64,000 bases of DNA from NCBI RefSeq assembly GCF_025144465.1, contig NZ_CP083553.1, positions 1,176,001-1,240,000 on the forward strand, read 5' to 3'. Shown here piece after piece: positions 681 to 21,047 of the stretch (positions are counted from its first letter, which is position 1; every line of letters begins with the position of its first letter). The DNA is from Leisingera sp. S132. GTDB taxonomy: Bacteria; Pseudomonadota; Alphaproteobacteria; Rhodobacterales; Rhodobacteraceae. Both the position numbers and the translations under genes were made by a program. The notes below the pieces were generated by a model. It was not told the DNA's origin and searched no databases. It saw only the letters and a list, made by a program, of their open reading frames with translations.

Positions 681-2210
681 ATGCATCAAGAACGTAACAT
701 TCCAGGGCTTCGCGCAGACGGCAGCTGGGACTTGCCAGGGCGGTTGAATATGGCCGCGCAATGCCTGGCGCAGCCGGACGATGCGCTGGCGCTGATTGAC
801 ATGACCGGCCCTGTACGCCGCGACATTTCCTATGGCGAATTGGCGGCAATGACAGACGGGCTGGCGCGCTATCTGCTGACCCGCATCCAGCCCGGCGACC
901 GGGTCGGGGTGCTGCTCAGCCAGTCGCCCTGGTGCGCGGCGGCACATCTGGCGGTCTGGAAGACGGGCGGCATCTCTGTGCCGCTGTTCAAACTGTTCAA
1001 ACATGACGCGCTGGCCTCGCGGGCTGGCGATGCCGGAGTGCGGTTTGTCTTTACCGATGCCGAGGGCGCGGACTTGCTGGGCAATTTGGCCGAGGCCGTG
1101 ATGGCGGACACAGCCGGCATTGATGGCGCGCCGGTGACCTTCGCTGACACCGAACCGGATACCCCAGCCGTTCTGATCTACACCTCCGGCACCACCGGCA
1201 GCCCCAAAGGCGCGCTGCATGGCCATAGAGTGCTGACCGGCCACCTGCCGGGCGTTGCCATCAGCCATGATCACCTCGGCCAGCCGGGTGATGTCCTTTG
1301 GACGCCGGCGGACTGGGCCTGGATCGGCGGCCTGTTCGATGTGCTGATGCCGGGCCTGGCGCTGGGCGTGCCGGTGGTTGCGGCGCGGCTGGACAAGTTC
1401 ACGCCGGAGGCCTGCGCGGAGCTGATCGCGCAGGCAGGCGTGCGCAACATCTTCTTTCCGCCGACCGCACTCAGGATGCTGAAGGCAGCCGGGCAGGGGC
1501 TCAGCGGTCTGCGCTCTGTTGCCAGCGGCGGAGAGCCCCTGGGCGCCGAGATGCTCGCCTGGGGCCGGCGGCAGCTGGGGGTGACCATCAACGAGTTTTA
1601 CGGCCAGACCGAATGCAACATGGTGGCCTCCTCCTGCGCCGCGGACTTCGAGCCGCGCCCGGGCTGCATCGGCAAGGCGGTGCCGGGGCATGAGCTGGCG
1701 GTGATCGACGAAGCGGGCAACCCTGCGCAAGGCGAGGGCGACGTCGCCATCCGCCGCGGCTCGGCCTCGATGCTGCTGGAATACTGGAACCGGCCTGTGG
1801 AAACTGCGGCCAAATTTCGCGACGACTGGCTGGTGACTGGCGACCGCGGCATCTGGGAGGGGGATTACTTGCGTTTCGTAGGCCGCGAGGATGACGTGAT
1901 TACCTCCGGCGGCTACCGCATCGGTCCGGCAGAGATCGAGGATTGTTTGATGACCCACCCGGCAGTGGCGACGGTTGGCGTGGTCGGCAAGCCCGACAGC
2001 CTGCGCACCGAGATCGTCAAAGCCTATGTGGTGCTGAAGCCGGGGGCGGAGGCCTCGGAACGGGAACTGCAGGATTACGTAAAGGGCCGCCTCGCGCAGT
2101 ACTCCTATCCGCGTGAGGTGGCGTTCCTGGACGCGCTGCCGATGACCGTGACCGGCAAGGTGATCCGCAAGGAATTGAAGGCGCGGGCTGCGGGGGAGAT
2201 TAAGCAGTAA
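681..2210 (+). CDS. AMP-dependent acyl-CoA synthetase of leucine-catabolic operon
   Basis: This 509-residue enzyme belongs to the acyl-adenylate-forming superfamily, which activates a carboxylic acid with ATP and CoA. The P-loop-like AMP-binding motif LIYTSGTTGSPKG lies near residue 165. The YGQTE motif, the TGDRG aspartate, the hinge region (VGREDDVITSGGYRIGPAEI) and the C-terminal catalytic lysine in TGKVIRKELK are all present. The length is at the short end for acetyl-CoA synthetase relatives and fits medium-chain or acetoacetate-type ligases. It is the first gene before methylcrotonyl-CoA carboxylase, so a branched short-chain acid or acetoacetate is the likely substrate; this is inferred from context. 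Its stop overlaps the next start as TAATG. Confidence 0.85.
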   Translation: MHQERNIPGLRADGSWDLPGRLNMAAQCLAQPDDALALIDMTGPVRRDISYGELAAMTDGLARYLLTRIQPGDRVGVLLSQSPWCAAAHLAVWKTGGISVPLFKLFKHDALASRAGDAGVRFVFTDAEGADLLGNLAEAVMADTAGIDGAPVTFADTEPDTPAVLIYTSGTTGSPKGALHGHRVLTGHLPGVAISHDHLGQPGDVLWTPADWAWIGGLFDVLMPGLALGVPVVAARLDKFTPEACAELIAQAGVRNIFFPPTALRMLKAAGQGLSGLRSVASGGEPLGAEMLAWGRRQLGVTINEFYGQTECNMVASSCAADFEPRPGCIGKAVPGHELAVIDEAGNPAQGEGDVAIRRGSASMLLEYWNRPVETAAKFRDDWLVTGDRGIWEGDYLRFVGREDDVITSGGYRIGPAEIEDCLMTHPAVATVGVVGKPDSLRTEIVKAYVVLKPGAEASERELQDYVKGRLAQYSYPREVAFLDALPMTVTGKVIRKELKARAAGEIKQ

Positions 2211-3127
2211 TGAGCAACAGTGACACAGCCGACGACCTGCAGCGGTTTCTGACGGATGTAGACCGAAAGTTTTATGCCGAGTTTGACCCTTTTTACTTCT
2301 GGACCCTTGCTGAGTGTTTGAACAAGGCAACACCAAGCAGCTTACGAATTCAGGACATCGATTCTGGTGAAGTCTTGGGAGAGCATTCCGTTCTAGATGG
2401 GCTTAAAATTTCTCGTGAACGGTATGAAGAGTATGCGATCCATACCATTAGGGCGTTGCGCTACTTTTCCTCTGAAACATTGGTTCTGTTCATTTTGTGC
2501 GGCTCAGACTTCGGGCCATTTGCGCGAATTGCATCCACGATGCGGGAAAGGGCATTGGCTCAGGTCTATCGGGCACTGAAAGATGAAAAAGTGCCTGAAG
2601 GGTTTGAGGTAGTTATTGGCGGGCAACCGCTCGCATTCAATGAATGGCTGTCCTACCAACTTTTCGCTGACCCGCGACAGTTGGAGGCTGTCACTCAAGG
2701 GGAGATCAAGCGGCTGGTTGTAGAGGAAGCTGATCTACTCTCTGAACGCGGAGCAATAAACGCATTTAAGCACGGAAAGCCAACTTATTTTGGCCCTGGC
2801 GTTGCTTTGAAGGTCAAAGACGAAACTGGTGAGTTTAGCCCCCTGAACGAAGTGGTTTCAGGGCTGAATTGGGTTGATTGGTACGAAAGCAAGGGGCGGG
2901 ACTTCTCCGTAGCTTTCGGGACCGAAGAACTGAATTCGGAACAGGATATGAAACGCCTCATGGCTGTTTCTTTACTGCTGCATTCGATTTGTTTGGTCAG
3001 AGGAGCAGTATCAAGAGGGGAAGCACAAGTTGATGTACACCTCCCCAATAACTTTGAAACCGGCCTTTCCGTGAAAAGGCAGAAGTTCAAGTTTTCGTTC
3101 AAACAAAAGGGAGTGCCGGTTAAATGA
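2210..3127 (+). CDS. Unrecognised AT-rich 305-residue protein inside leucine operon
   Basis: I do not recognise a family. The 305-residue product is soluble, with no signal peptide or membrane segment, and is rich in aromatic and acidic residues near its start. It has an [11 protein letters not shown] stretch near residue 185 and a very basic C-terminus ([14 protein letters not shown]). Base composition is visibly lower in GC than both neighbours (for example 28 of 60 bases at 2281-2340). The start overlaps the upstream TAA by one base (TAATG) and the stop overlaps the mccB start (ATGA), so the gene is translationally coupled on both sides. A full-length frame with operon-compatible ends argues for a functional gene. 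Composition suggests it was acquired. Function unknown. Confidence 0.75.
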
Positions 3128-4728
3128 AACTCACATCCAAGGCGATGCCCTCCTCGGACGGCTTCAAGCAGAACCGCGAGGCGCATCTGGCGGCTCTTGC
3201 GCAGATCAGCGAGGCGGCTGAGGCCGCGCGCTTGGGCGGCGGCGAGAAATCCCGCGCCCGGCACGAAAGCCGCGGCAAGATGCTGCCGCGCCGCCGGGTG
3301 GCAAACCTGCTGGACCCCGGCTCCCCGTTCCTGGAGATCGGCGCCACCGCGGCGCATGCCATGTATGACGGCGCCGCGCCCGCGGCGGGCGTGATTGCGG
3401 GCATCGGCCGGGTGCACGGGCAGGAGGTCATGGTGGTCTGCAATGACGCCACCGTGAAAGGCGGCACCTATTACCCGATGACGGTGAAGAAACACCTGCG
3501 CGCGCAGGAAATTGCCGAGGAAAACCGTCTCCCCTGCATCTATCTGGTCGACTCGGGCGGCGCCAACCTGCCCAACCAGGACGAGGTCTTCCCCGACCGC
3601 GACCATTTCGGGCGCATCTTCTACAACCAGGCGCGGATGTCGGCCAAGGGCATCCCGCAAATCGCGGTCGTCATGGGCTCCTGCACCGCGGGCGGCGCCT
3701 ATGTGCCGGCTATGTCGGACGTCACCATCATCGTTAAGGAGCAGGGCACCATCTTCCTGGCCGGCCCGCCGCTGGTGAAGGCCGCGACGGGCGAGGTCGT
3801 CAGCGCCGAGGATCTGGGCGGCGGTGATGTGCACACGCGCCTCTCCGGTGTGGCCGATTATTTGGCCGAGGATGACGCCCACGCGCTGGCGCTGGCCCGC
3901 CGTGCGGTGCAGTCGCTGAACATCACCAAGCCGCTGACGGTGAACTGGGCCAGCCCGGAAGAGCCGGCTTACGACCCCGAGGAAATCCTTGGCGTGGTTC
4001 CGGGCGATCTGCGCACGCCTTATGACATCCGCGAAGTGATCGCGCGGCTGGTCGACGGCTCCCGCTTTGACGAGTTCAAACCGCGCTTCGGCGAAACCCT
4101 GGTGACCGGCTTTGCCCACCTCAAGGGCTGCCCGATCGGCATCATCGCCAACAACGGCGTCTTGTTCTCCGAAGCCGCCCAGAAAGGCGCGCATTTCGTG
4201 GAACTGTGCAGCCAGCGCAAGATCCCGCTGGTGTTCCTGCAGAACATCACCGGCTTCATGGTCGGCCGCAAATACGAAAACGAAGGCATCGCCCGCCACG
4301 GCGCCAAGATGGTGACGGCCGTCGCCACCACCAATGTCCCCAAGATCACCATGCTGGTCGGCGGCTCCTTTGGTGCCGGCAACTACGGCATGTCGGGCCG
4401 CGCTTACTCCCCGCGCTTCCTGTGGACCTGGCCGAATTCCCGCATCTCGGTGATGGGCGGCGAGCAGGCGGCGGGTGTGCTGGCGACCGTGAAACGCGAC
4501 GCCATCGAACGCCAGGGGGGCAGCTGGAGCACCGAGGACGAAGCGGAGTTCAAACGCCCCACCATCGAGATGTTCGAGGAACAGAGCCATCCGCTTTATG
4601 CCTCGGCCCGCCTCTGGGATGACGGCATAATCGACCCGCGCAAATCCCGCGACGTGCTGGCCCTGTCGCTGAGCGCCGCGCTGAATGCCCCGATCGAAGA
4701 CACGCGCTTCGGCGTGTTCCGGATGTGA
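3124..4728 (+). CDS. mccB: Methylcrotonoyl-CoA carboxylase carboxyltransferase (beta) subunit
   Basis: This 534-residue protein matches the biotin-dependent carboxyltransferase family and has the usual length for MccB (about 535). It transfers the carboxyl group from biotin to 3-methylcrotonyl-CoA in leucine breakdown. Diagnostic stretches include the N-terminal [54 protein letters not shown] and the oxyanion-hole glycines in [15 protein letters not shown]. The C-terminal half has [20 protein letters not shown] and [13 protein letters not shown]. The start ATG overlaps the stop of the preceding orphan gene (ATGA). The alpha subunit follows 9 bp downstream. LiuB would be an equivalent name. 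Confidence 0.95.
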
Positions 4729-4737
4729 GGATCTCCC

Positions 4738-6663
4738 ATGTTTGACAAAATCCTGATTGCCAACCGCGGAGAGATTGCCTGCCGCGTGATGGAAACCGCC
4801 CGTGCCATGGGGGTGCTGACCGTGGCTGTTTACTCCGACGCCGATGCGGCTTCGAAACATGTGGCGCTGGCGGATGAGGCCGTGCATATCGGCGGCCCGG
4901 CCCCGGCAGACAGCTACCTGAAGGGCGACGAGATCATCCGCGTCGCACAGGAAACCGGCGCCCAGGCGATCCACCCGGGGTACGGCTTCCTGTCGGAAAA
5001 CCCGAAATTCGTCGAGGCGGTGGAGGCTGCGGGCCTCACTTTCATCGGGCCGTCGGCGGATGCGATCCGCAAGATGGGCCTCAAGGACGCCGCCAAGGCG
5101 CTGATGGAAGAGGCCGGCGTGCCGGTGGTGCCGGGCTATCACGGTGCCAATCAGGACCCGGAGTTCCTGGCCGGCGAGGCGGAGAAGATCGGCTATCCGG
5201 TGCTGATCAAGGCGGTTGCCGGCGGCGGCGGCAAAGGCATGCGGTTGGTCGAAAAGCCTGCCGAATTTGCCGATGCCCTGAAAAGTGCCCAAGGCGAGGC
5301 GACCACCGCCTTTGGCAACCCGGATGTCCTGATCGAGAAATACATCCAGCAGCCGCGGCATATCGAGGTCCAGGTCTTTGGCGACGGGACCCACGCGGTG
5401 CATCTGTTCGAGCGCGACTGCTCCCTGCAGCGCCGCCATCAGAAGGTGATCGAGGAAGCGCCCGCGCCGGGCATGACCGAGGAGATGCGCGAGGCGATGG
5501 GACAGGCTGGCGTGCGGGCGGCGGAGGCCATCGGCTATAAGGGCGCGGGCACGGTCGAGTTCATCGTTGACGGCTCTGACGGGCTGCGCCCCGACGGGTT
5601 CTGGTTCATGGAAATGAACACCCGCCTGCAGGTGGAGCATCCGGTGACCGAGCTGATCACCGGCGTCGATCTGGTGGAGTGGCAGTTGCGCGTCGCCTCT
5701 GGCGAGAGTCTGCCCGCCAAGCAGGAAGACCTCACCATCACCGGCCACGCCTTTGAGGCGCGGCTTTACGCGGAGGACGTGCCCAAGGGCTTCCTGCCCG
5801 CAACCGGCACCCTAACCCATCTGTCCTTCCCGGCTGAGGCCCGCGCCGACAGCGGTGTGCGGGCAGGGGATACTATCAGCCCCTGGTACGACCCGATGAT
5901 CTCCAAGGTGATCGTGCATGGTTCCACCCGCAAGGTGGCGCTGTCGCGGCTGGCCCGCGCGCTGGAGGAAACGCAAGTCGGCGGAACCGTCACCAACCTG
6001 GCATTCCTTGGCGCACTGGCGGCGCATGAGGGCTTTGCCAACGGCGAGGTGGACACCGGACTGATTGCCCGCGATCTGGACGCGCTGACCGCAGCGCCGG
6101 TGGTGGAACTGCGCCACAAGGCAGCGGCCGGCATGGTGGCGCTGGATCTGGTGGAGGCTGCACCGGACACCGGTTTCACCCTCTGGGCGCCTCTGCACCG
6201 GGCCGTCATCCTTTCCCATGCGGGTGAGGAGTTTACGGCGGATGTGCAGGTGGACGGGCCGGACCGGCAGCTTTGGACCATTGATGGCGAAACCGTCGTG
6301 GCCGAACGCAGCCAGGGCCAGTGGCGCATTGACGAGCGCCGGATGCCCGCGGTGTCGCAGTCGGGAACGCTGATCACTGTGCATGATGCCTACGGGCTGG
6401 AGTTCACCGCGATAGACCCGCTGGACCGCGATGCGGCAGCAGGCGGCGACAGCAACGTGATCGAGGCGCCGATGCCGGGCCTCGTGAAGGCGGTCTTTGC
6501 CGAAGCCGGCCAGGCGGTGAAGGAGGGCGACCGGCTTGCGATTCTGGAAGCGATGAAAATGGAGCATTCGCTGCTGGCGGCCCGCGACGGTGTGGTGGCC
6601 GAGGTTCTGGCCGCTGCAGGCGACCAGGTTGAAGCCGGTGCAGCGCTGGTGCGGCTGGAATAA
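4738..6663 (+). CDS. mccA: Methylcrotonoyl-CoA carboxylase biotin-carboxylase (alpha) subunit
   Basis: This 641-residue, two-function subunit carboxylates biotin with ATP and bicarbonate. The N-terminal biotin carboxylase starts FDKILIANRGEIACRV and has the ATP-grasp loop GGGGKGMRLV, the RDCSLQRRHQK active-site region and EMNTRLQVEHPVTE. A linker domain leads to a C-terminal biotinyl domain in which ILEAMKMEH places the biotinylated lysine at residue 607. The biotin protein ligase encoded at 26547 is the obvious modifying enzyme. Methylcrotonyl rather than acetyl- or propionyl-CoA specificity is inferred from the adjacent mccB, HMG-CoA lyase and methylglutaconyl-CoA hydratase genes. Confidence 0.95.
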   Translation: MFDKILIANRGEIACRVMETARAMGVLTVAVYSDADAASKHVALADEAVHIGGPAPADSYLKGDEIIRVAQETGAQAIHPGYGFLSENPKFVEAVEAAGLTFIGPSADAIRKMGLKDAAKALMEEAGVPVVPGYHGANQDPEFLAGEAEKIGYPVLIKAVAGGGGKGMRLVEKPAEFADALKSAQGEATTAFGNPDVLIEKYIQQPRHIEVQVFGDGTHAVHLFERDCSLQRRHQKVIEEAPAPGMTEEMREAMGQAGVRAAEAIGYKGAGTVEFIVDGSDGLRPDGFWFMEMNTRLQVEHPVTELITGVDLVEWQLRVASGESLPAKQEDLTITGHAFEARLYAEDVPKGFLPATGTLTHLSFPAEARADSGVRAGDTISPWYDPMISKVIVHGSTRKVALSRLARALEETQVGGTVTNLAFLGALAAHEGFANGEVDTGLIARDLDALTAAPVVELRHKAAAGMVALDLVEAAPDTGFTLWAPLHRAVILSHAGEEFTADVQVDGPDRQLWTIDGETVVAERSQGQWRIDERRMPAVSQSGTLITVHDAYGLEFTAIDPLDRDAAAGGDSNVIEAPMPGLVKAVFAEAGQAVKEGDRLAILEAMKMEHSLLAARDGVVAEVLAAAGDQVEAGAALVRLE

Positions 6664-6681
6664 GAAGACGGCTGATCTGGG

Positions 6682-6740
6682 GCGGGGGCGGCGCGCCTGC
6701 CGCCCCCGCTGCGGTTTGAGTATTTTTGGAAAGATGAAGC
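6682..6740 (+). repeat. Hairpin plus GAGTATTTTTGGAAAGATGAAG dispersed motif, copy 1
   Basis: Between mccA and the lyase gene is a perfect 11-bp stem (GCGGGGGCGGC at 6682-6692 with its complement at 6699-6709, 6-nt loop). Eight bases later comes a T-rich stretch at 6718-6740 beginning GAGTATTTTTGG and ending AAGATGAAGC. A second hairpin-plus-motif copy occurs at 50561-50617 after an unrelated gene, so it is a dispersed element. It resembles an intrinsic terminator, but the T-run is displaced from the stem. Confidence 0.6.
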
Positions 6741-6753
6741 CGGAGGGCATTCC

Positions 6754-7611
6754 ATGGGTGAATTTGCCGAAATCTTCGAAGTTGGCCCGCGCGACGGGCT
6801 GCAGAACGAAAAGCGGGAGATCCCGGTTGCGGAAAAGGTGGCGCTGACCGACTGCCTCAGCCGCGCCGGGTTCAAACGCATCGAGGTGGCCAGTTTCGTG
6901 TCGCCCAAATGGGTGCCGCAGATGGCGGGCAGCGCGGAGGTGCTGGCGGGTATCACCCGCGCATCTGGCGTCCGCTATGCAGCTCTGACCCCCAATATGC
7001 GCGGATATGAAGACGCGGTAGCCGCCAAAGCGGATGAGATCGCGGTCTTTGCATCGGCTTCCGAAGGCTTCTCCAAGGCAAATATCAACGCCACCATCGA
7101 GGAAAGCATAACGCGCTTCCTTCCGATCCTGGAGGCCGCCAAGGAAACCGGGCTGCCGGTCCGGGGCTATGTCTCCTGCGTGACCGACTGCCCTTATGAC
7201 GGGGCCACGCCGCCCGGGAAGGTGGCAGAGGTGGCCGAACGGCTGTTCTCGCTCGGCTGTTACGAGATCTCGCTGGGCGACACCATCGGACAGGGCACCC
7301 CGGAGGCGATCACTGCGATGCTCAATGCTGTCACCGCGCGGGTGCCCGCTGTACAGCTGGCAGGCCACTACCACGATACCGCGGGCCGGGCGCTCGACAA
7401 TATCGAAGCTTCGCTGGCGCAGGGCGTGCGGGTGTTCGATGCGGCCGTTGGCGGCCTCGGCGGCTGCCCCTATGCGCCGGGCGCGGCGGGCAATGTGGCA
7501 ACGGAAGCGGTGCACAAGCGCCTGACCGGACTGGGCTATGAAACCGGCCTGGATGCGGAGGTGCTGGAAGAAGCCGCAGCACTCGCCCGGGCCATGCGCG
7601 GCCTGCAGTAA
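6754..7611 (+). CDS. mvaB: Hydroxymethylglutaryl-CoA lyase
   Basis: This 285-residue TIM-barrel lyase splits 3-hydroxy-3-methylglutaryl-CoA into acetyl-CoA and acetoacetate, the last step of leucine degradation. The start FEVGPRDGLQNEK carries the conserved metal-binding GPRDGLQ motif. The catalytic cysteine signature appears as VGGLGGCPYAPGAAGNVATE, and the metal-binding histidines as AGHYHDT. Length is typical for bacterial HMG-CoA lyases. A good ribosome site (GGAGGG) precedes the ATG. The lyase follows mccA after 90 bp holding a dispersed hairpin element, and the hydratase gene follows 20 bp downstream. Confidence 0.95.
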   Translation: MGEFAEIFEVGPRDGLQNEKREIPVAEKVALTDCLSRAGFKRIEVASFVSPKWVPQMAGSAEVLAGITRASGVRYAALTPNMRGYEDAVAAKADEIAVFASASEGFSKANINATIEESITRFLPILEAAKETGLPVRGYVSCVTDCPYDGATPPGKVAEVAERLFSLGCYEISLGDTIGQGTPEAITAMLNAVTARVPAVQLAGHYHDTAGRALDNIEASLAQGVRVFDAAVGGLGGCPYAPGAAGNVATEAVHKRLTGLGYETGLDAEVLEEAAALARAMRGLQ

Positions 7612-7631
7612 GAATTCAGCGGAGATACAAG

Positions 7632-8414: not shown

Positions 8415-8444
8415 AAAGCGGCATAATTGAATCACGTTTTCACG

Positions 8445-8476
8445 GCGGCTGCAGATCTCCCTGCGGCCGCTTTTCT
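8445..8476 (+). terminator. Intrinsic terminator after leucine operon
   Basis: A 10-bp stem with one G-T pair (GCGGCTGCAG at 8445-8454, CTGCGGCCGC at 8461-8470, loop ATCTCC) is followed by TTTTCTTAT. An alternative long pairing exists between AAAAGCGGC (8414-8422) and GCCGCTTTT (8466-8474). It separates the leucine operon from the nuo promoter. Confidence 0.7.
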
Positions 8477-8556
8477 TATGAAAACACTTGGGAATTATCC
8501 CTGTGTTGCAACAGTGCTTTTTCTATCCAAACCCCTGTGGATTAACCTTGCTTTAG

Positions 8557-8585
8557 TTGACGCTCCCCGGGCGCGGGGGTATGCA
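8557..8585 (+). promoter_or_regulatory. Sigma-70-type promoter for the nuo operon
   Basis: TTGACG at 8557-8562 and TATGCA at 8580-8585 are separated by 17 bp, close to the housekeeping consensus. They lie about 60 bp before the nuoA start and just after the terminator of the previous operon. The spacer contains a GC-rich dyad (CCCCGGGCGCGGGG). Confidence 0.5.
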
Positions 8586-8647
8586 CTGTCCAAATCAACA
8601 CGCCAATTGACGCCGCGCGGAAAACCGCCCGGGGAAAGGAGCTGCTC

Positions 8648-9537: not shown

Positions 9538-9554
9538 GGAGGGGCGGAGACAAC

Positions 9555-11383: not shown

Positions 11384-12570
11384 TGCTTCGCCGTCTGCAT
11401 TCCGAACAACCCGACAGCTTTGCCTTCACCCCGGCCAACCAGGCCTGGGCTGAGGCGCAGATCACCAAGTATCCTGAGGGCCGTCAGGCCTCTGCGGTCA
11501 TTCCGCTTTTGTGGCGTGCGCAGGAACAGGAAGGCTGGGTTACCAAACCCGCGATCGAAGCCGTCGCCGATATGCTCGGCATGGCCTATATCCGGGTGCT
11601 GGAGGTTGCCTCCTTCTACTTCATGTTCCAGCTGCAGCCGACCGGTTCCATCGCCAATATCCAGATCTGCGGCACCACGTCCTGCATGATCTGCGGCGCC
11701 GAGGATCTGGTGGCGGTCTGCAAGGAAAAGATTGCCGAGAAGCCGCACACCCTTTCGGCAGATGGCAAGTTCACCTGGGAAGAGGTCGAGTGCCTGGGGG
11801 CCTGCACCAACGCCCCCATGGCGCAGATCGGCAAGGACTATTATGAAGACTTGACCGTCGAGAGCTTCACCAAGCTGCTGGACGATCTGGCGGCTGGCAA
11901 GGTTGTGGCACCAGGGCCGCAAAACGGGCGTTATGCAGCTGAGCCGAAATCGGGCCTCACCTCGCTGACCGAGTTTGACAGCGGCAAGACCCAATACAAC
12001 GCGAGCGCGCAGCTGGCGATGGACATCAAGGACGGCGTCAAGCGCATCCAGGGCGATGAAGTGCCGCTGCTGACGCCTTGGGTCGGCAAGGACGGTGTTG
12101 TGGCCGGCCGCGCCGCCGAAGGTCAGCCGCCGAAAGCGCCGGAAGCACCGAAGCCTGCCGTGAAGCAGGCAGAGGAAGCCGCCAAGGCAGCGCCGAAGAA
12201 ATCCGCCGCGGCAGAACCCGCTTCGCCGGAAGGGGCTGCGGCGAAACCCGCGGCAGACAGCCAGGCAGAAGAAAGCCAGCCCGAGGTCCTGAAAGAGGCC
12301 CGCGGCGGCCTGCCGGATGATCTGAAGCTCCTGAAGGGCGTCGGCCCCAAGCTGGAAGAAAAGCTGAACGAACTGGGTTTCTTCCACTTTGACCAGATCG
12401 CCGAATGGACCGGGGCCGAAGTCGCCTGGGTTGATGCGCGTCTCAAGTTCAAAGGCCGGATCGAACGGGACGGCTGGATCGAACAGGCCAAGCGCCTTTC
12501 GGTGGGTGACGAGACCGAGTTTGCGAAGCGTGCCAAAAAAGAGCACCTCTACGACGATAAAGAAGATTGA
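11383..12570 (+). CDS. nuoE: NADH-quinone oxidoreductase subunit E with long C-terminal extension
   Basis: NuoE holds the 2Fe-2S cluster N1a beside FMN. Residues 1-165 form the usual thioredoxin-like domain, with ligands Cys96, Cys101, Cys137 and Cys141. Ordinary NuoE proteins stop at about 170-240 residues; this one has 395. After the core comes a segment ending near residue 235, an Ala/Pro/Glu/Lys-rich linker (about 245-305) and a C-terminal domain starting [20 protein letters not shown]. That domain resembles a helix-hairpin-helix repeat. Similar extensions are known in alphaproteobacterial NuoE. The start overlaps the nuoD stop (TAATG). Confidence 0.93.
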
Positions 12571-12842: not shown

Positions 12843-12848
12843 GCACAC

Positions 12849-14147
12849 ATGCTGAAGGATCAGGACCGGATCTTTACCAACCTTTACGGAATGCACGACC
12901 GCAACCTGGCGGGCGCCAAGGCGCGCGGCCATTGGGACGGCACCGCTGGCATCATCGAAAAGGGCCGCGACTGGATCATTCAGACGATGAAGGATTCCGG
13001 TCTGCGCGGCCGTGGCGGCGCGGGCTTCCCGACCGGCCTCAAGTGGTCCTTCATGCCCAAGGAAAGCGACGGCCGCCCGGCGTATCTGGTCATCAACGCC
13101 GATGAATCCGAGCCCGGCACCTGCAAGGACCGGGAAATCATGCGCCACGATCCGCACACGCTGATCGAGGGCGCGCTGATCGCCTCCTTCGCGATGAACG
13201 CGCATACCTGCTACATCTACCTGCGCGGCGAATACATCCGCGAGCGCGAGGCGCTGCAGGCCGCGATCGACGAATGCTACGACAAGGGGCTGCTGGGCAA
13301 GAACGCCGCCGGTTCCGGCTGGGACTTCGACGTCTTCCTGCACCATGGGGCAGGGGCCTACATCTGCGGCGAAGAAACCGCGCTGATCGAGAGCCTGGAA
13401 GGCAAGAAGGGCATGCCCCGGATGAAGCCGCCGTTCCCGGCGGGCGCGGGCCTTTACGGCTGCCCGACCACCGTGAACAACGTGGAATCCATCGCGGTTG
13501 TGCCGACCATCCTGCGACGCGGCGCCGACTGGTTCGCGTCCTTCGGGCGCCAGAACAACGCGGGCACCAAGCTGTTTGCGATCTCCGGCCACGTCAACAA
13601 TCCCTGTGTGGTCGAAGAGGCGATGTCGATAGGTTTCGAGGAATTGATCGAAAAGCATTGCGGCGGCATCCGCGGCGGCTGGGATAATCTGCTGGCCGTG
13701 ATCCCCGGCGGCTCCTCTGTCCCCTGTGTGCGCGGCGAGAACATGCGTGACGCGATCATGGACTTCGACTACCTGCGTGGCGAGCTGGGCTCCGGCCTCG
13801 GCACTGCGGCGGTGATCGTGATGGACAAGCAGACCGACATCATCAAGGCGATCTGGCGACTGTCCAAGTTCTACAAGCACGAAAGCTGCGGCCAGTGCAC
13901 CCCCTGCCGCGAAGGCACCGGCTGGATGATGCGCGTCATGGACCGCCTGGTGAAGGGCGAGGCCGAGCTGGAAGAGATCGACATGCTGTGGGACGTGACC
14001 AAACAGGTCGAAGGCCACACCATCTGCGCCCTTGGCGACGCAGCTGCTTGGCCGATCCAGGGCCTGATCAAAAACTTCCGCGAAGAAATCGAGGACCGCA
14101 TCAAGGCCCAGAAAACCGGCCGTATGGGCGCGATGGCGGCGGAATGA
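12849..14147 (+). CDS. nuoF: NADH-quinone oxidoreductase subunit F
   Basis: NuoF binds NADH, FMN and 4Fe-4S cluster N3 and is the electron entry point of complex I. The 432-residue product has the FMN/NADH motif [13 protein letters not shown] from residue 54, [16 protein letters not shown], and the second nucleotide motif [19 protein letters not shown]. The cluster ligands are Cys347, Cys350, Cys353 (SCGQCTPC) and Cys393. Its stop overlaps the start of an AT-rich small gene (ATGA) instead of the next nuo gene. Confidence 0.96.
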
Positions 14148-14542
14148 AGAAACTTGCGACGATACTCTTTCTGGCATGCGGGCCAGCTTCTGCAACGGAG
14201 CTGCCGTATCCGCCGTATGAGTTCTCGCTGTACTTGTCCTGGGGGCAGATCGCCGTTGATGTTGCAAAGCACTGTAAGACCTTAGCAATCGACAAAGAGC
14301 AGTATCGTGTCCTGGAAGAAGAAAATTTTCAGTTGCTAGAGCGGGAAGGCTTCTCGCGTGGCAATTGGCGAAATGAAATGGAGGAAGTCCCGGTTGGGAT
14401 CAGAGACCAAGTGAACTTCGAGTTCTATTTTGCCTATGGCATTCGCACTGGAACGCTTGAGAGCGAATGGTGCCATGCGGGGCGGCAAGCGATGAAAAAA
14501 AATAAGTATTTGGACCAGTTGTTGACTGAGCAATGGTGGTAA
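14144..14542 (+). CDS. Secreted AT-rich protein, diverged DUF5333-like paralogue
   Basis: The 132-residue product has a short signal peptide ([17 protein letters not shown]) and is presumably periplasmic. It contains two cysteines, Cys44 and Cys110. Without gaps, its region 40-125 lines up with the protein encoded at 15427-15831. Both have exactly 66 residues between the cysteines, a G-[FY]-S 25 residues after the first, CxxGR at the second, and a following K-N pair. The codons are markedly more AT-rich than nuoF or the downstream gene. The start overlaps the nuoF stop (ATGA) and the stop is 4 bp before the MAPEG gene. Function unknown. Confidence 0.75.
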
Positions 14543-14546
14543 CTTG

Positions 14547-14963
14547 ATGGAAGCCTTCGACGCATATTCCCACGCTCTGGCCGCGCTGGTGATCTTTACC
14601 CTGATCACCCTGGCGCTGTCGCCGTTTTCGGCGCTGGCCAAGCAGAAGGCGGGCCTCGCTCCGGGCGCCACGCCGCAAGAGGACTATGCGGAGAAGGCCT
14701 ACCGGCTGAACCGGGCGTATCTGAACGGCTGCGAGACTTTGCCGGCCTTCCTGACTGTGACACTGGTGGCAATTCTTGCGGGTGCGGCGCCGTTCTGGGT
14801 GAACCTGCTGGCGTCTATGGCGGTGGTGTCCCGTGTGTTCATGATTTTCATTCACCTGCAGGGCATCGGCAAACCGCACAGCGGTCCGCGCTCTGTTTTC
14901 TACGTTCTCGGCTGGGCCTGTATGGCGGGTCTGGCGATCCTGGCATTGGCGGCAGTATTTTGA
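14547..14963 (+). CDS. MAPEG-family membrane protein
   Basis: This 138-residue protein has four hydrophobic segments (about 9-28, 66-84, 87-103 and 118-137). Its AYRLNRAYLNGCETLPAFL loop resembles the RAxxNxxE-type pattern of MAPEG (membrane-associated eicosanoid and glutathione metabolism) proteins. Bacterial members are often of unknown substrate. ATG 14547 was chosen over an in-frame TTG three bases upstream. It sits between AT-rich and normal small genes of the nuo operon, and its stop overlaps the region just before the next start. A role in complex I is not established. Confidence 0.8.
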   Translation: MEAFDAYSHALAALVIFTLITLALSPFSALAKQKAGLAPGATPQEDYAEKAYRLNRAYLNGCETLPAFLTVTLVAILAGAAPFWVNLLASMAVVSRVFMIFIHLQGIGKPHSGPRSVFYVLGWACMAGLAILALAAVF

Positions 14964-14965
14964 GC

Positions 14966-15325
14966 ATGATGAAGACATACCGGATGGCCGTTCCGGCGGC
15001 CTGCCTGGCGGCTCTGGCGCTGGTTTCGGCCTGCGGCACCTCCACGACCAACAAGAACCGCGAGCTGTACGACGGCGTGGCGTTCAAGGCGAAGGCCAAG
15101 CCCATCGACAAGAAGACAAACCCCGCGGTGTTCCAGATCGACATCAAAGGCGTTGAGCGCTCGGTCAAGGGCGCGCGGGAAGCGGCGGCCCATGGCGGCA
15201 CCACCTACTGCGTGACCACCTACGGGTCCTCAAAGATCAACTGGGCCAACGACCCGCGTGACGAGGAGACCCCGCTGACCATCACTGATGGCCGCGCTGT
15301 GTTCCAGGGGACCTGCACCCCGTGA
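14966..15325 (+). CDS. Putative lipoprotein in nuo operon
   Basis: The 119-residue product has a signal peptide ending in the lipobox LVSAC (Cys about residue 23), so it is likely lipid-anchored. The mature part contains ELYDGVAF, a VFQIDIKG strand, AAAHGGTTYCVTTYG and a terminal GTC. The small lipoprotein at 17856 shows the same order of elements (Y-x-G-V, an aliphatic strand ending in G, a Y-x-x-YG-like stretch, a late Cys), a weak hint of kinship. ATG 14966 or 14969 could be the start. It follows the MAPEG stop by 2 bp. I do not recognise a named family. Confidence 0.7.
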   Translation: MMKTYRMAVPAACLAALALVSACGTSTTNKNRELYDGVAFKAKAKPIDKKTNPAVFQIDIKGVERSVKGAREAAAHGGTTYCVTTYGSSKINWANDPRDEETPLTITDGRAVFQGTCTP

Positions 15326-15360
15326 GCGGATTTCCGGCATATCAGGGCCTTACGGTCCGG

Positions 15361-15377
15361 CTGCTATTGCATAGCAG
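15361..15377. other. Small perfect inverted repeat in 100-bp gap
   Basis: CTGCTAT (15361-15367) and ATAGCAG (15371-15377) form a 7-bp dyad around TGC. It lies in the only sizeable gap (about 100 bp) inside the front half of the nuo operon, about 50 bp before the next ATG. No T-run follows, so it is not a terminator; it could be an operator or an mRNA processing hairpin. Confidence 0.4.
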
Positions 15378-15426
15378 AAGCGCGCGCCTGCGCATGGGGG
15401 CTTCGAAACTGAAGGAGACCCATGCC

Positions 15427-15831
15427 ATGCGTGCCCTGATTGCCGCTGTTCTGTCCACTGTTGTTGCCTTGCCAGCCGCAGCGCTGGCGAAACCGTCGCT
15501 GCGTGATGTGCAGGAAATCGAAGACCCGCTGTTTGCCGTTGCGGTGGCCAAGGAAGTCTCGGACTACTGCGACGACATCTCTCCGCGTTACCTGAAAGGG
15601 CTGGGCGAGTTGCGCCGGCTCAAAGCGCGGGCCAACGCGCTGGGATACTCGGACGCGGAAATCCGCAGCTACATCGAATCTGATGCTGAAAAGGCCCGGA
15701 TGCGCGCCAAGGGAGAACAGCTCCTGGCGCAGAACGGCGTCGACTACGGCGAACCCGAAACATTCTGCGCCTATGGCCGCGCAGAGATTGAGAAAAACAG
15801 CGCGATCGGCGTGTTACTGAGGGCGAAATAG
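15427..15831 (+). CDS. Secreted DUF5333-like protein in nuo operon
   Basis: The 134-residue product has a signal peptide (MRALIAAVLSTVVALPAAALA) followed by KPSLRDVQEIEDPLFAVAVAKEVSDYC. It carries two cysteines (Cys48 and Cys114), GYSDAEIRSYIE, and ends with FCAYGRAEIEKNSAIGVLL. From memory this is the DUF5333 family of Rhodobacteraceae. The start ATG 15427 follows GAAGGAGA; the longer frame from 15322 would destroy the signal peptide. nuoG begins 3 bp after the stop. The AT-rich gene at 14144 encodes an apparent paralogue with identical cysteine spacing. Function unknown; a disulfide is plausible. Confidence 0.8.
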   Translation: MRALIAAVLSTVVALPAAALAKPSLRDVQEIEDPLFAVAVAKEVSDYCDDISPRYLKGLGELRRLKARANALGYSDAEIRSYIESDAEKARMRAKGEQLLAQNGVDYGEPETFCAYGRAEIEKNSAIGVLLRAK

Positions 15832-15834
15832 ACC

Positions 15835-17859
15835 ATGTCTGACCTCCGCAAGATCAACATTGACGGAACCGAGATCGAGGTGGATGGGGCAATGACCCTG
15901 ATCCAGGCCTGTGAGGAGGCCGGCGTCGAGATCCCGCGCTTCTGCTACCATGAGCGCCTGTCGATTGCCGGCAATTGCCGCATGTGCCTGGTTGAGGTCG
16001 TCGGCGGCCCGCCCAAGCCCGCCGCCTCCTGTGCGATGCAGGTCCGCGATCTGCGCCCCGGGCCCGAAGGCCAGGCGCCGCAGGTGAAGACGAACTCGCC
16101 GATGGTCAAGAAGGCCCGCGAAGGCGTGATGGAGTTCATGCTGATCAACCACCCGCTGGACTGCCCGATCTGCGACCAGGGCGGCGAATGCGACCTGCAG
16201 GACCAGGCGATGGCCTATGGCCTGTCGGGCAGCCGCTTCAAGGAAGCCAAGCGCGCGGTGGATGATCTGGACCTCGGTCCGCTGGTTTCCACCACCATGA
16301 CCCGCTGCATCTCCTGCACCCGCTGCGTGCGCTTCACCACTGAGGTCGCCGGCATCACCCAGATGGGTCAGACCGGGCGCGGCGAGGATGCGGAGATCAC
16401 CTCCTATCTGAACCAGACACTGCAATCGAACCTGCAGGGCAACATCATCGACCTGTGCCCGGTGGGCGCGCTCACGTCGAAACCCTATGCCTTCACCGCC
16501 CGTCCGTGGGAGCTGACCAAGACCGAAACCATCGACGTGATGGACGCGCTGGGGTCGAACATCCGCGTGGATACCAAGGGCCGCGAAGTGATGCGCATCC
16601 TGCCGCGCAACCACGACGGCGTGAACGAGGAATGGATCAGCGACAAGACCCGCTTTGTATGGGACGGGCTGCGCCGGCAGCGTCTTGACCGCCCCTATGT
16701 GCGCGTCGATGGCAAGCTGAAGCCCGCGACCTGGGCAGAGGCGCTGTCTGCTGCCGCAACCGCCATGAAGGGCAAGAAGATTGCGGGTCTCATTGGCGAT
16801 TTGGCCCCGGTTGAGGCAGCCTTTGCTCTGAAACAGCTGGTTGAAGGTCTGGGCGGCAAGGTTGAATGCCGTACAGACAACGCGCGCCTGCCGATCGGCA
16901 ACCGGGCGGGCTATGCCGGCACCGCGACCATCGAAGACGTCGATGACGCACAGATGATCCTGCTGATCGGCACCAACCCGCGCGACGAGGCGCCGGTGCT
17001 GAACGCCCGCATCCGCAAGGCCTGGGCCAAGGGCGCCGAAGTAGCGCTGATCGGACCGGCGGCGGATCTGACCTATGAATACTACCATGCCGGCACCGGC
17101 CGCGACGCGCTCAGCGATATGATCGCCAAAGGCGTCTCGGAAGAAACCCGCGACAACAAGAAGACCTTGATCATCGTGGGGCAGGGCGCCCTGCGCGAGG
17201 CTGATAGCCTGGCGGTCCTGGCGGCTGCGCAGAAGATGGCGGAGCTGTCCGGCTCCAAGCTGATGGTGCTGCATACCGCCGCCTCCCGCGTGGGCGCGAT
17301 GGACATCGGCGCTGTGACCGAAGGCGGCATGGCCGCCGCCATTGACGGGGCTGACGTGATTTACAACCTCGGTGCCGATGAGGTGGAAATCGACGCAGGC
17401 GCCTTTGTGATCTACCAGGGCAGCCACGGCGACCGCGGCGCGCACCGCGCCGATGTGATCCTGCCGGGCGCTGCCTATACCGAGGAAAACGGCCTGTTCG
17501 TGAACACCGAAGGCCGGCCGCAGCTGGCGATGCGCGCAGCCTTTGCGCCGGGTGAGGCCAAGGAAAACTGGGCGATCCTGCGCGCGCTGAGCGCGGAGGC
17601 GGATGCCAAGCTGGGCTATGACTCGCTGGCCCAGCTGCGCCAGGCGCTGGTCGCTGAGGTGCCGCATCTGGCAAAGATCGACGAAGTGGCCGAGAAGGAC
17701 GGCGAGGCGCTGGAGCAGGACAAGCTTGGCAACGCGGACTTCCTGCCCGCAATCAAGGATTTCTACCTGACCAACCCGATTGCCCGCGCGTCCCAGCTGA
17801 TGGCGGAACTGTCGGCAGGTGTGAAAGCCCGCGGAAACGAGGCAATGGCCGCCGAATGA
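15835..17859 (+). CDS. nuoG: NADH-quinone oxidoreductase subunit G
   Basis: NuoG is the largest peripheral-arm subunit, carrying several iron-sulfur clusters. In the 674-residue product the 2Fe-2S ligands are Cys37, Cys48, Cys51 and Cys66. The His-ligated cluster N5 uses His106, Cys110, Cys113 and Cys119 ([14 protein letters not shown]). The N4 ligands are Cys158, Cys161, Cys164 and Cys208. The extra N7 cluster motif of Escherichia coli is not evident. A molybdopterin-oxidoreductase-like domain with no cofactor makes up the rest. The stop overlaps the next small gene by ATGA. Confidence 0.96.
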
Positions 17860-18242
17860 TCCGCTTTGCCCTCATAACGCCCTTCCTGCTGGCCGCCTGC
17901 GCAATGGCGCCCGGCACCGGAGGCGAGCGGCCCGCTCCGGTTTACGAAGGGGTGGAAACCAGCCTGCTGGAGGGCGATCTGGTGCAATTTCACGTCTCCA
18001 TGCGAGGGGCTGCCGCACCGGAAGACGTTGAGAACTATGCGGAATGCGCCGCCGCGCAATACGCGCTGATCCGGGGCTACGGATTTGCGCGACATGTGCG
18101 CACAACTTTGACACAGGCTGGGGGCAAATCTTCCGCGGATGCGGTCTATCTGATTTCGCCCTCTCTGCCGCGCGGGCTGCGCACCATCGACGCCAATGTC
18201 GCGGTTGCGGATTGCACGGCAAACGGAATACCCACGGTGTGA
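17856..18242 (+). CDS. Putative lipoprotein between nuoG and nuoH
   Basis: The 128-residue product has a short signal ending in the lipobox LLAAC (Cys about residue 15), so it is probably an outer- or inner-membrane lipoprotein. Visible elements are [42 protein letters not shown] and DANVAVADC near the end. The start overlaps the nuoG stop (ATGA), and nuoH starts 6 bp after the stop, so it is part of the operon. I recall similar unnamed genes in this position in other Rhodobacteraceae but cannot name a family. It may be related to the lipoprotein at 14966. Confidence 0.72.
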
Positions 18243-18248
18243 GGACCT

Positions 18249-19286
18249 ATGGCTGATTTCTTTAACACTCCAGGCGGCATCGCTGTTCTGATCCTGGCGC
18301 AAGTGCTTGCAGTTGTTGCCTTTGTGATGATCTCGCTCCTGTTCCTCGTCTACGGGGACCGCAAGATCTGGGCTGCGGTCCAGATGCGCCGGGGCCCGAA
18401 CGTGGTGGGCGTCTACGGCTTGCTGCAATCGGTGGCCGACGCGCTGAAATACGTGGTCAAGGAAGTGGTGATCCCGGCCGGTGCCGACCGAACCGTCTTT
18501 ATCCTGGCGCCGATGACCTCCTTCGTGCTGGCGATGATCGCCTGGGCGGTGATCCCCTTCAATGACGGCTGGGTGCTCTCGGACATCAACGTCGCCATCC
18601 TCTATGTCTTCGCGGTCTCATCTCTGGAGGTCTACGGCGTGATCATGGGCGGCTGGGCGTCGAACTCGAAATATCCGTTCCTGGGCAGCTTGCGCTCCGC
18701 GGCACAGATGATCTCCTACGAGGTCTCCATCGGCCTCATCATCATCGGCGTGATCATCTCCACCGGTTCGATGAACTTCGGTGACATCGTTCGCGCGCAG
18801 GACGGCGATCTGGGACTGTTGAACTGGTACTGGATCCCGCATTTCCCGATGGTCTTCCTGTTCTTCATCTCGGCGCTGGCGGAAACCAACCGGCCGCCGT
18901 TCGACCTGCCGGAAGCGGAATCGGAACTGGTGGCGGGCTACCAGGTTGAATATTCGGCAACGCCGTTCCTCTTGTTCATGGCCGGGGAATACATCGCAAT
19001 CTTCCTGATGTGCGCGCTGACAACCCTGCTGTTCTTCGGCGGCTGGCTGTCACCGATCCCGGGCCTGCCTGATGGCGTCCTGTGGATGGTTGCCAAGATG
19101 GCGTTCTTCTTCTTCCTCTTCGCAATGGTGAAGGCGATCACCCCGCGCTACCGCTACGACCAGCTGATGCGCCTGGGCTGGAAAGTGTTCCTGCCGTTCT
19201 CGCTGGCCTGGGTGGTTTTCGTGTCCTTTGCTGCAAAATTTGACTGGTTCTGGGGCATCTTCGCCCGCTGGACCGTGGGAGGCTAA
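18249..19286 (+). CDS. nuoH: NADH-quinone oxidoreductase subunit H
   Basis: NuoH is the membrane subunit that joins the peripheral arm and shapes the quinone entrance. The 345-residue product has about eight transmembrane segments and the family blocks [37 protein letters not shown] and the highly conserved cytoplasmic loop [26 protein letters not shown]. Glutamates of the E-channel are included in that loop. nuoI follows 3 bp downstream. Confidence 0.96.
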
Positions 19287-19289
19287 CTG

Positions 19290-19784
19290 ATGGCGAACAT
19301 CGACTACACCCGCGCCGCCAAATACTTCCTGCTGCAGGATTTCTGGGTCGGCTTCAAACTGGGGATGAAGTATTTCTTTGCCCCCAAGGCTACCCTGAAC
19401 TACCCGCACGAGAAGGGTCCGCTGTCGCCGCGTTTCCGCGGCGAGCACGCGCTGCGCCGCTACCCCAACGGCGAGGAGCGCTGCATTGCCTGCAAGCTCT
19501 GCGAGGCGGTCTGCCCGGCGCAGGCGATCACCATCGACGCGGAACCGCGCGAGGACGGCAGCCGCCGCACCACGCGCTATGACATCGACATGACCAAATG
19601 CATCTACTGCGGTTTCTGCCAGGAAGCCTGCCCGGTGGATGCGATTGTCGAAGGCCCGAACTTCGAATTCGCCACCGAAACCCGCGAGGAGCTGTTCTAC
19701 GACAAGGAGAAGCTGCTTTCGAACGGCGAACGCTGGGAAGCCGAGATTGCCCGCAACCTGGAAATCGACGCGCCGTACCGATGA
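19290..19784 (+). CDS. nuoI: NADH-quinone oxidoreductase subunit I
   Basis: NuoI is the 8-iron ferredoxin-like subunit that passes electrons from NuoG to NuoB. The 164-residue product has two complete 4Fe-4S motifs: Cys65, 68, 71 and 75 ([12 protein letters not shown]), and Cys104, 107, 110 and 114 ([12 protein letters not shown]). Length is typical of alphaproteobacterial NuoI. The next gene starts inside its stop (ATGA). Confidence 0.96.
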
Positions 19785-20200
19785 GCGATCCCAAGAACCC
19801 TTTCGAGGCCATGATGGCCCAGGCCCAGCAGATGGCCAAGGCGTTCAACCCGGCGCTGGAGAACTTCTCGCCTTCCGAGGCGTTCAAGGAGTTCGAGGCG
19901 CTGTGGCCCACCATGCCCAAAGAGGTCATGGAAATGATGTTCGGCAACACCGTCAACAAGGACGGGCTGGATGCCAAGACCCGGCTGCTGCTGACACTGG
20001 CCGGGCTGACAATGCAGGGCGCACAGGCCGACAGTGCCGTGCGCCAGACCGTGCGCCACGCCCTTGCGGCCGGCGCCAAGAAACAAGAGATCGTGGAAAC
20101 GATCGGACAAATGTCGGTATTTGCCGGCATTCCGGCCATGAACCGGGCGCTGGATCTGGCGCAGGGGGTCATGGACGACAAAAGGGACGATGAGACATGA
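19781..20200 (+). CDS. Carboxymuconolactone-decarboxylase-like small protein in nuo operon
   Basis: The 139-residue product starts at ATG 19781, overlapping the nuoI stop (ATGA). After an N-terminal helix rich in Met and Gln ([11 protein letters not shown]), residues about 50-130 ([49 protein letters not shown]) match the helical AhpD/CMD fold. Many CMD proteins have a CxxC pair used in peroxide reduction; this one has no cysteine, so a peroxidase role is unlikely. The stop overlaps the nuoJ start (ATGA). Its role near complex I is unknown. Confidence 0.8.
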
Positions 20201-20799
20201 GCGTTTTTGCCTTCTACCTCTTCGCCATCAGCGCCATCACCGGCGGGCTGTTCACCGTGATCAGCCGCCAGCCGGTGCATTCGGTCCTGTGGCTGATCCT
20301 GGCTTTCCTTTCTTCGGCCGGGCTGTTTGTGCTTCTGGGGGCGGAGTTCGTCGCCATGCTGCTGGTCATCGTCTACGTGGGCGCGGTCGCGGTGCTGTTC
20401 CTGTTTGTGGTGATGATGCTGGACGTGGACTTTGCCGAGCTGAAGGCGGAGATGGCGCGCTACATGCCGCTGGCGCTGCTCATCGGGCTGGTGATCCTGA
20501 TGCAGTTCGTGATGGCCTTCGGTGTCTGGGAAACCGCCCACAAGGCGCCGGAGCTGCTGGCCAATCCGGTGCCTGCGGACCGCCACAACACCGAGGCGCT
20601 CGGCCTCATCATCTATGATCAATATTTCCTTCTGTTCCAGCTTGCGGGCCTGATCCTGCTGGTGGCGATGATCGGTGCGATCGTGCTGACCCTGCGCCAC
20701 CGCACCGACGTCAAGCGCCAGGACGTGGTTGCCCAGATGATGCGCGACCCGGCCGCTGCGATGGAGCTGAAGGACGTGAAACCGGGGCAGGGGCTGTGA
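20197..20799 (+). CDS. nuoJ: NADH-quinone oxidoreductase subunit J
   Basis: NuoJ is a five-helix membrane subunit containing the pi-bulge helix (here [23 protein letters not shown]). The 200-residue product has the typical early [25 protein letters not shown] block and a cytoplasmic tail ([20 protein letters not shown]). The start overlaps the preceding CMD-like gene (ATGA). The stop TGA overlaps the start of an AT-rich small gene by TGATG, where nuoK would normally follow directly. Confidence 0.95.
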
Positions 20800-21047
20800 T
20801 GAGGAGAACAATCCTTACCGTTGCCGCGCTGGGTACAATTGCAGCGCAGATTGGCTTCATTGGCACAGAAGGCCTCGCCGGTACTCATCCTTGGAGCCAT
20901 TCCTTCGGCCCCAACCTACCGGGGGTGTACACAACCGTTTCCGGATCATTCTTAGAACCAGTTGATGGATCGATATGCTCCTTCGGCTTTGGTTGTATCG
21001 ATCAGCGTCCTGGACTTATTCAGCTATACGAGAGCTTGTTACCATGA
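20799..21047 (+). CDS. Unrecognised small secreted AT-rich protein between nuoJ and nuoK
   Basis: The 82-residue product begins [19 protein letters not shown], which looks like a signal peptide or membrane anchor. It continues with a Gly/Pro/Ser/aromatic-rich mature part holding two cysteines (Cys60, Cys66). Composition is clearly lower in GC than nuoJ and nuoK. The start shares one base with the nuoJ stop (TGATG), and the stop overlaps the nuoK start (ATGA). nuoJ and nuoK usually overlap each other, so this gene occupies their junction. I do not recognise a family. The precise ends argue it is translated; the short length leaves some doubt. Confidence 0.6.

Follow-up and report, generated by a model that had tools for sequence, protein, structure and literature searches.

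Species-variable single genes at stop/start joints in the Leisingera operons for leucine catabolism and complex I, and their possible exchange as junction haplotypes

Introduction

In replacement flexible genomic islands, complete gene clusters are exchanged by homologous recombination in similar flanks and, in the part of the published account drawn on here, the exchanged regions are always whole functional clusters that code for surface structures (Lopez-Perez et al. 2014, PMC4033161). The present analysis concerns a stretch of 64,000 nucleotides (nt) of Leisingera sp. S132 (contig NZ_CP083553.1, positions 1176001-1240000, hereafter the window; genome G000), in which three AT-rich genes, termed g1, g2 and g3, lie exactly at stop/start joints of the operons for leucine catabolism and respiratory complex I (nuo). 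As in the islands, to the extent that their account is drawn on here, one locus carries differing genes in different lineages (at seven of 24 junctions), and near-identical content occurs in diverged lineages (in one case, the nuoD/nuoE junction of G004 and G013); unlike the islands as described there, the units are single genes inside core operons, with stop/start overlaps.

The explanation that we favour, with modest confidence, is recombinational exchange of junction haplotypes combined with selection for translational coupling, and not a precise insertion machine. It is favoured because the first codons of nuoI are linked to the occupancy of the preceding junction, because one cassette is nearly identical in two diverged species, and because upstream stop codons are biased with occupancy. 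Operons are usually seen as conserved blocks that rarely gain genes; here the same joints change single genes repeatedly, and coupling survives this in both the complex I and the leucine operons. The complex I operons of Paracoccus and Rhodobacter contain species-specific extra reading frames between nuo or nqo genes, and operons do gain new genes; the genes described here resemble such cases. In a literature search whose coverage left out most subscription papers, no account was found of within-genus turnover, alternative empty haplotypes or linked core codons, nor of single-gene exchange at operon stop/start joints. The junctions offer a clean system for the study of gene entry into operons, of the exact restoration of empty states and of the role of rapidly changing exported proteins.

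Results

The three genes had been singled out in a preliminary description of this DNA as clearly AT-richer than their neighbours and fitted into operon stop/start overlaps, and both observations were confirmed. The names mccB (liuB; methylcrotonyl-CoA carboxylase beta), mccA and the nuo letters are those that we assume from operon order (for nuoF also from size), and Pfam confirms the AMP-binding, MAPEG and DUF5333 genes of the stretch. The genes and their immediate neighbours are the following.

681-2210, plus strand: acs, AMP-binding acyl-CoA synthetase, upstream of g1 (Pfam AMP-binding, 7e-61)
2210-3127, plus strand: g1, AT-rich accessory gene of 305 amino acids (aa), filling the acs/mccB junction
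3124-4728, plus strand: mccB (liuB), ATG at 3124, its start ATGA holding the g1 stop
12849-14147, plus strand: nuoF, upstream neighbour of g2
14144-14542, plus strand: g2, 132 aa, signal-like N terminus, in the nuoF/MAPEG junction
14547-14963, plus strand: MAPEG-family gene, downstream of g2 (Pfam MAPEG, 1.6e-17)
20197-20799, plus strand: nuoJ, upstream of g3, present in all 21 Leisingera genomes
20799-21047, plus strand: g3, apparent orphan of 82 aa, signal-like N terminus, in the nuoJ/nuoK junction
21044-21349, plus strand: nuoK, its start ATGA holding the g3 stop

Each of the three begins inside the stop region of the gene before it: the ATG of g1 (2210) within TAATG, sharing the acs stop at 2208-2210, that of g2 (14144) within the ATGA of nuoF, and that of g3 (20799) within TGATG at the nuoJ stop; for g3 a GTG in the same frame, at 20796, is a possible alternative start. 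At the other end, g1 (stop 3127) and g3 (TGA 21047) finish inside the ATGA starts of mccB and nuoK (ATG 21044), and the TAA of g2 at 14542 falls 4 nt short of the MAPEG-family ATG at 14547. The G+C content (GC) of g1, g2 and g3 is 48.7, 49.9 and 51.8%, versus 62.5 +/- 2.8% in 25 curated flanking core genes (z = -4.9, -4.5 and -3.8), and GC at third codon positions (GC3) is likewise low in all three, at 51.0, 59.4 and 49.4% versus 81.0 +/- 5.4% (z = -5.6, -4.0 and -5.9). Of 20000 shuffles of the same composition, 0, 17 and 698 stayed open for g1, g2 and g3, respectively; a coding status is thus nearly certain for g1 and g2 and no more than probable for g3. Overlaps of 1 or 4 nt also occur at eight of the 24 core junctions of the stretch in G000, a count that depends on the chosen start codons. 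Overlapping starts alone are not unusual; three other features exceed chance, namely the composition, the existence of an empty state in relatives and the repeated occurrence of inserts at the same joints.

In order to survey these joints across the genus, the acs-to-nuoN region was taken from 20 relatives (G001-G020, G009 in two pieces on two contigs and G016 as fragments only) and the gaps between all consecutive core genes were measured. The core genes of the stretch share 87-93% DNA identity with those of 18 of these genomes, the proteins flanking the junctions are mostly more than 85% identical (86-94% for acs, 97-100% for nuoF), and mccB was found in all 21 Leisingera genomes at E <= 1e-150. 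Compared over up to 21 genomes, seven of the 24 core junctions are hypervariable, differing by more than 100 nt between species, and the other 17 shift by no more than about 80 nt, a negative value in a fragment of G016 being an artefact. Coding occupancy is 9/21 at acs/mccB, 10/20 at nuoC/nuoD (mostly a gene of 43-56 aa), 6/20 at nuoD/nuoE, 4/20 at nuoF/MAPEG, 9/20 at nuoH/nuoI, 2/20 at nuoI/x19790 and 5/21 at nuoJ/nuoK, the junctions being empty in some species and holding single genes, often unrelated and usually AT-richer, in others. Homologues at the same place in all relatives, which the preliminary description had named as evidence against its proposal, are thus not what the junctions of g1, g2 and g3 contain.

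The inserts at acs/mccB form four BLAST-level families (three when two profile-related ones are merged), and at nuoJ/nuoK five genomes hold five families. In the four closest relatives on the core-gene tree (G008, G011, G012 and G019) neither g1, g3 nor a BLAST-level match to g2 is present at these junctions, g1 was not found anywhere in the genomes of the four, and three of them hold three other genes at nuoJ/nuoK. When 36 inserts longer than 200 nt were read on both strands, the longest frame always lay on the operon strand. Among 45 insert open reading frames (ORFs), 32 begin inside the upstream stop (21 at -4 and 11 at -1) and 44 begin within 6 nt of it, as selected by a picker reaching at most 6 nt upstream of the end of that stop and with three frames (nuoD/nuoE of G005, nuoC/nuoD of G009 and G010) that are probably not the true ones. 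At the downstream end 22 of the 45 overlap the next start and seven more finish within 5 nt of it; 42 are AT-richer than their flanks, 35 of them by more than 5 points. Fitch parsimony on a core-gene tree of 19 genomes (G016 and G009 left out), with state labels entered by hand from the junction data, gave 36 state changes over the seven junctions, including two non-coding spacer states.

Several of these joints show peculiarities of their own. The nuoC/nuoD gene of 43-56 aa in G002, G003, G007, G013, G014, G018 and G020 is conserved at its N terminus (MWFEPLAE...) and hypervariable in its C-terminal tail. At nuoI/x19790, a spacer of 91-106 nt with paired AT-rich hairpins, CAAAAGTTTTC..GAAAACTTTTG, is found in G001, G004, G005, G014, G017, G018 and G020. 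The mccB/mccA joint differs by a spacer of about 80 nt in nine of 21 genomes (e.g. L052, L056), where 78-90 nt with the GC-rich palindrome CCGGGGG...CCCCCGG replace the 9-nt spacer of the others; the palindromic spacer looks like a repetitive extragenic palindromic (REP)-type element. The window itself lacks this spacer, and the one motif of it that was sought there was not found. Spacers of about 80 nt were treated as non-coding.

A first indication of exchanged haplotypes, with the clearest change at a boundary, comes from a junction that is empty in the window.

19287-19298, plus strand: nuoH/nuoI junction, empty in G000, where the spacer CTG precedes the nuoI start ATGGCGAAC of the "empty" haplotype

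All nine genus genomes with an occupied nuoH/nuoI junction start nuoI with ATGACCCAA and all 11 with an empty one start it with ATGGC(G/A)AAC (Fisher p = 6e-6), such that codons 2-3 of nuoI switch with occupancy in complete linkage within the genus. The nine inserts are five BLAST-unrelated genes, followed by one common nuoI start, and occupied and empty genomes are mixed on the core tree, the sisters G001 and G005 differing. Over the first 15 nt of nuoI the association with occupancy is complete (1.0), and between 15 and 240 nt it does not exceed 0.41; the 120 nt on the nuoH side of the junction give 0.30-0.46.

A second indication is the nuoD/nuoE cassette of G004 and G013, which is 97.7% identical in the two genomes versus a mean of 87.8% over 21 core genes. 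Over the 100 nt adjoining it on either side the identity is 96 and 98%, and further out it is 84-94% in the upstream and 67-93% in the downstream flank; the downstream side is unusual, the first 150 nt of nuoE ranking 4th among 171 pairs. The case is likely to represent one recent inter-species transfer. Stop codons provide a third indication, an upstream TGA permitting an ATGA, GTGA or TTGA start. The nuoD stop is TGA at 33 of 39 occupied versus 15 of 53 empty junctions (p = 7e-8), and for nuoF TGA is commoner when the junction is occupied and TAA when it is empty (p = 0.022); the other four upstream-stop tests gave no association with occupancy (p 0.13 to 1). The density of single-nucleotide polymorphisms rises at the 3' end of acs to 33.9% in the last 30 nt, versus 10-15% further off; such boundary peaks are weaker at nuoC/nuoD and nuoD/nuoE and absent from the nearest 30 nt of nuoJ/nuoK, and the invariant nuoE/x12567 joint also peaks (36.4%).

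Relatives of g1, a rare accessory gene, are few. The only one among the 21 Leisingera genomes is in G010, 26% identical and at the same junction, and the only further one among 394 genomes of the family (about one per genus) is in G032, 35% identical. The G032 copy has a GC of 46% in a locus of 65.5%, overlaps mccB by 4 nt and follows a different gene, acyl-CoA dehydrogenase-like by eye. All three Rhodobacteraceae copies found are thus directly upstream of mccB; stand-alone relatives, 23-24% identical, are present on two rhizobial plasmids. No Pfam, NCBIfam or PADLOC family was matched by g1 up to E 1, and a g1 profile found no match among solved structures or in the 80 named loci of the Roseobacter group. 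Among 385 genomes of the class its sole hit was G000, and of 189 candidates among viral contigs none was confirmed. A single-sequence AlphaFold2 model reached a mean confidence score (pLDDT) of 33.5.

The probable relationships of g2 lead to a family that already has a member in the operon.

15322-15831, plus strand: canonical DUF5333 gene of the nuo operon (Pfam DUF5333, 1.4e-40)

Genome-wide searches for g2 and g3 covered the family genomes, with only G017 among the other 20 Leisingera genomes. Weak matches to g2 were obtained in G331 (8e-5) and G257 (4e-4), 23-25% identical, and in L161 (7e-4). The relatives in G257 and G331 lie about 20 and about 330 nt after nuoF, those in L161 and L146 some 700 nt beyond nuoF and ahead of nuoG. 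All four, and the nuoF/MAPEG inserts of G012 and L112, match a DUF5333 profile, at 8e-7 to 2e-10 for G331, G257 and L161. In alignment with these DUF5333-like relatives g2 shares a cysteine and a CxxGR...LL ending, and it resembles DUF5333 (PF17267) also in lying in the same operon and in its signal-like N terminus; unlike the DUF5333 genes it occupies a different slot, directly after nuoF, and has a GC of 50% versus normal GC in the four relatives. The direct evidence is weak: 16.3 bits and E 0.012 against Pfam DUF5333, under the 27-bit gathering cut-off, and, against DUF5333 genes from the nuo operons of relatives, a probability of 2.8 by hhalign and an E of 0.045 by hmmsearch, which is no improvement on the 0.039-0.049 of unrelated neighbouring frames. 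Because of this, g2 is described only as probably a very diverged DUF5333-like protein. A literature search on DUF5333 found no paper.

No convincing homologue of g3 was found in the 394 family genomes, and by these searches it is an orphan. Matches in five of 393 other genomes (E 5e-4 to 6e-3) look like chance. The nuoJ/nuoK insert of G012 matches the Rap1a immunity proteins (PF18602) at E 4e-4, below the cut-off (21.2 vs 27.7 bits); g3 had no match to this family in the Pfam scan.

In the 80 Roseobacter-group loci, seven of which are genus genomes, the same joints vary widely, as do others such as mccB/mccA and nuoE/x12567, and nuoA/nuoB, x17856/nuoH, x19790/nuoJ and nuoK/nuoL are nearly invariant; gaps at nuoL/nuoM and nuoM/nuoN in this comparison are artefacts and were disregarded. 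One of the loci, L090, titled Nocardioides marinus DP1N28-1, has a Leisingera-type nuo/mcc region, groups with the genus set and is probably mislabelled. The AT bias is weaker in the wider group, with 156 of 220 inserts AT-richer than their flanks and 57 by more than 5 points.

For clustering of the wider and genus sets together, inserts below 150 nt, family gaps above 3000 nt and the ech/nuoA, nuoL/nuoM and nuoM/nuoN intervals were excluded, L088-L094 were removed from the family inserts as duplicates of genus genomes, and ORFs spanning less than half of the insert were dropped, which kept 265 of 279 records. The 265 proteins form 88 clusters, 56 of them singletons; only two of the 32 multi-member clusters occur at more than one junction, in both cases adjacent ones. 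A profile probability of at least 30 was reached by four of 379 cluster pairs from the same junction and by none of 1200 randomly sampled pairs from different junctions.

Signal-like N termini, scored by a crude rule on insert families picked by hand, are found in 17 of 26 families versus a mean of 1.6 and a maximum of 6 in 300 shuffles. Among 20 inserts scanned with Pfam, 12 had no match at E 0.1 and two exceeded the cut-off (a methyltransferase and a carboxymuconolactone decarboxylase); matches below the cut-off were to sulfotransferase, Rap1a and DUF5333, and three further ones were trivial. The PADLOC defence models gave no family up to E 1 for any of four proteins, g1-g3 among them, and neither PADLOC nor PHROGs returned anything useful for g1-g3. 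As a weak guess, the inserts could encode proteins of the envelope or periplasm that are subject to diversifying or antagonistic selection.

Discussion

We propose that, in Leisingera and more widely in the Roseobacter group, certain stop/start joints in the operons for leucine catabolism and complex I occur in alternative haplotypes. One form is empty apart from a short spacer; the other contains a single gene in the operon's orientation, which often encodes a small exported protein. The haplotypes would be swapped between strains via homologous recombination in the conserved flanking genes, and selection would retain those in which starts and stops still permit translational coupling, so that the outcome would look like exact insertion. 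In this family the haplotypes may plausibly have been carried by gene transfer agents, or else by natural transformation; g1-g3 may have arrived in the same manner, and a housekeeping operon would probably provide steady expression. The preliminary suggestion that acquisition or divergence had left coupling intact is borne out for coupling, as overlap is seen in occupied and empty states, and divides between genes as to origin, acquisition suiting g1 and a fast-diverging resident family suiting g2.

Several results weigh against exchange. Further from the nuoH/nuoI junction the association with occupancy rises again, to 0.60-0.64 between 120 and 480 nt on the upstream side and to 0.74 between 240 and 480 nt on the downstream side, perhaps owing to bins with more columns or to shared ancestry. 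Outside Leisingera the nuoI ATGA start does not track occupancy, being found at five of 10 occupied and 27 of 51 empty junctions; since it is present in both states there, this start may have come first, with the empty haplotype appearing later and spreading. In the G004/G013 case the upstream flank is unexceptional (the last 300 nt of nuoD rank 105th of 171), and 15 other pairs sharing a cassette are 43.8-92.2% identical, roughly as diverged as the core or more so. Only three of 12 stop/start tests fell below 0.05 (the nuoD stop, the nuoF stop at 0.022 and the nuoI start at 0.035), and the genus set has one genome per species. The relatives of g2 in G257, G331, L146 and L161 have normal GC, and DUF5333-like inserts occur at two separate joints, after nuoF (G012, L112) and at duf5333/nuoG (L116), so that site fidelity is not absolute.

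The best-surviving alternative, which we nevertheless consider rather unlikely, is that the inserts are old residents of these operons, with very rapid evolution and repeated loss, and that their foreign appearance results only from divergence and relaxed codon use. The DUF5333-like relatives of g2 between nuoF and nuoG fit this history, and some inserts that appear unrelated by BLAST converge by profile, namely two exported clusters at acs/mccB (probability 96) and two clusters at nuoD/nuoE (95), with clusters at nuoJ/nuoK borderline (15-23). However, 375 of the 379 same-junction pairs remain under a probability of 30, a comparison in which single-sequence profiles are insensitive, one nuoI start is common to nine occupied genomes across unrelated genes, and g1 was found only in three Rhodobacteraceae genomes and on the rhizobial plasmids.

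It is improbable that some of the inserts, g3 above all, are young or spurious open frames without function. Besides staying open in 698 of 20000 shuffles and having no convincing homologue, g3 shows no codon-position pattern (GC1 53, GC2 53, GC3 49%); yet g3 and four other inserts fit exactly between the nuoJ stop and the nuoK start and have an exported-type N terminus. The selected, precise mode of insertion raised in the preliminary description, by a dedicated mobile element or enzyme placing genes between stop and start, would account for the concentration of starts at -4 and -1 and is very improbable, as BLAST-level families do not hop between non-adjacent junctions, boundaries differ from junction to junction, codons 2-3 of the downstream core gene vary with occupancy at nuoH/nuoI, and overlap is common among the operons' own genes too; this judgement involved no search aimed at integrases, attC-like sites or shared end sequences.

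Returning to haplotype exchange, a broader form of it is put forward tentatively, as somewhat short of probable. In this form, the core respiratory and catabolic operons of roseobacters would be docking sites. At their fixed stop/start joints, recombination would exchange single-gene cassettes from a large, fast-turnover pool for exported proteins, in some cases together with the initial codons of the core gene downstream, and the operons would act as expression platforms for a hypervariable periplasmic repertoire.

Other operons and intervals

At sdhA/sdhB, two of 20 genomes hold a gene of 97 aa whose start lies in TGATG and whose N terminus is signal-like by eye, and the other 18 have an 11-nt gap. 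The two copies are 91-93% identical, and this insert shows no recent transfer because the identity is close to that of the surroundings. In the atp operon no gap changed by more than 4 nt at four junctions in 20 genomes. Other intervals of the sdh region vary too, among which sdhA/sdhB and the gap after sdhB were examined; the latter exceeds 400 nt in five of 20 genomes, G000 included, where a gap of 850 nt (at about 11527-12376 of the locus L184) contains an AT-richer frame that is exported-looking by eye. Elsewhere in the window, the frames at 38476-39375, 39847-40746, 53805-55493 and 55719-56336 have a GC near 55% and low codon scores and are candidate genes.

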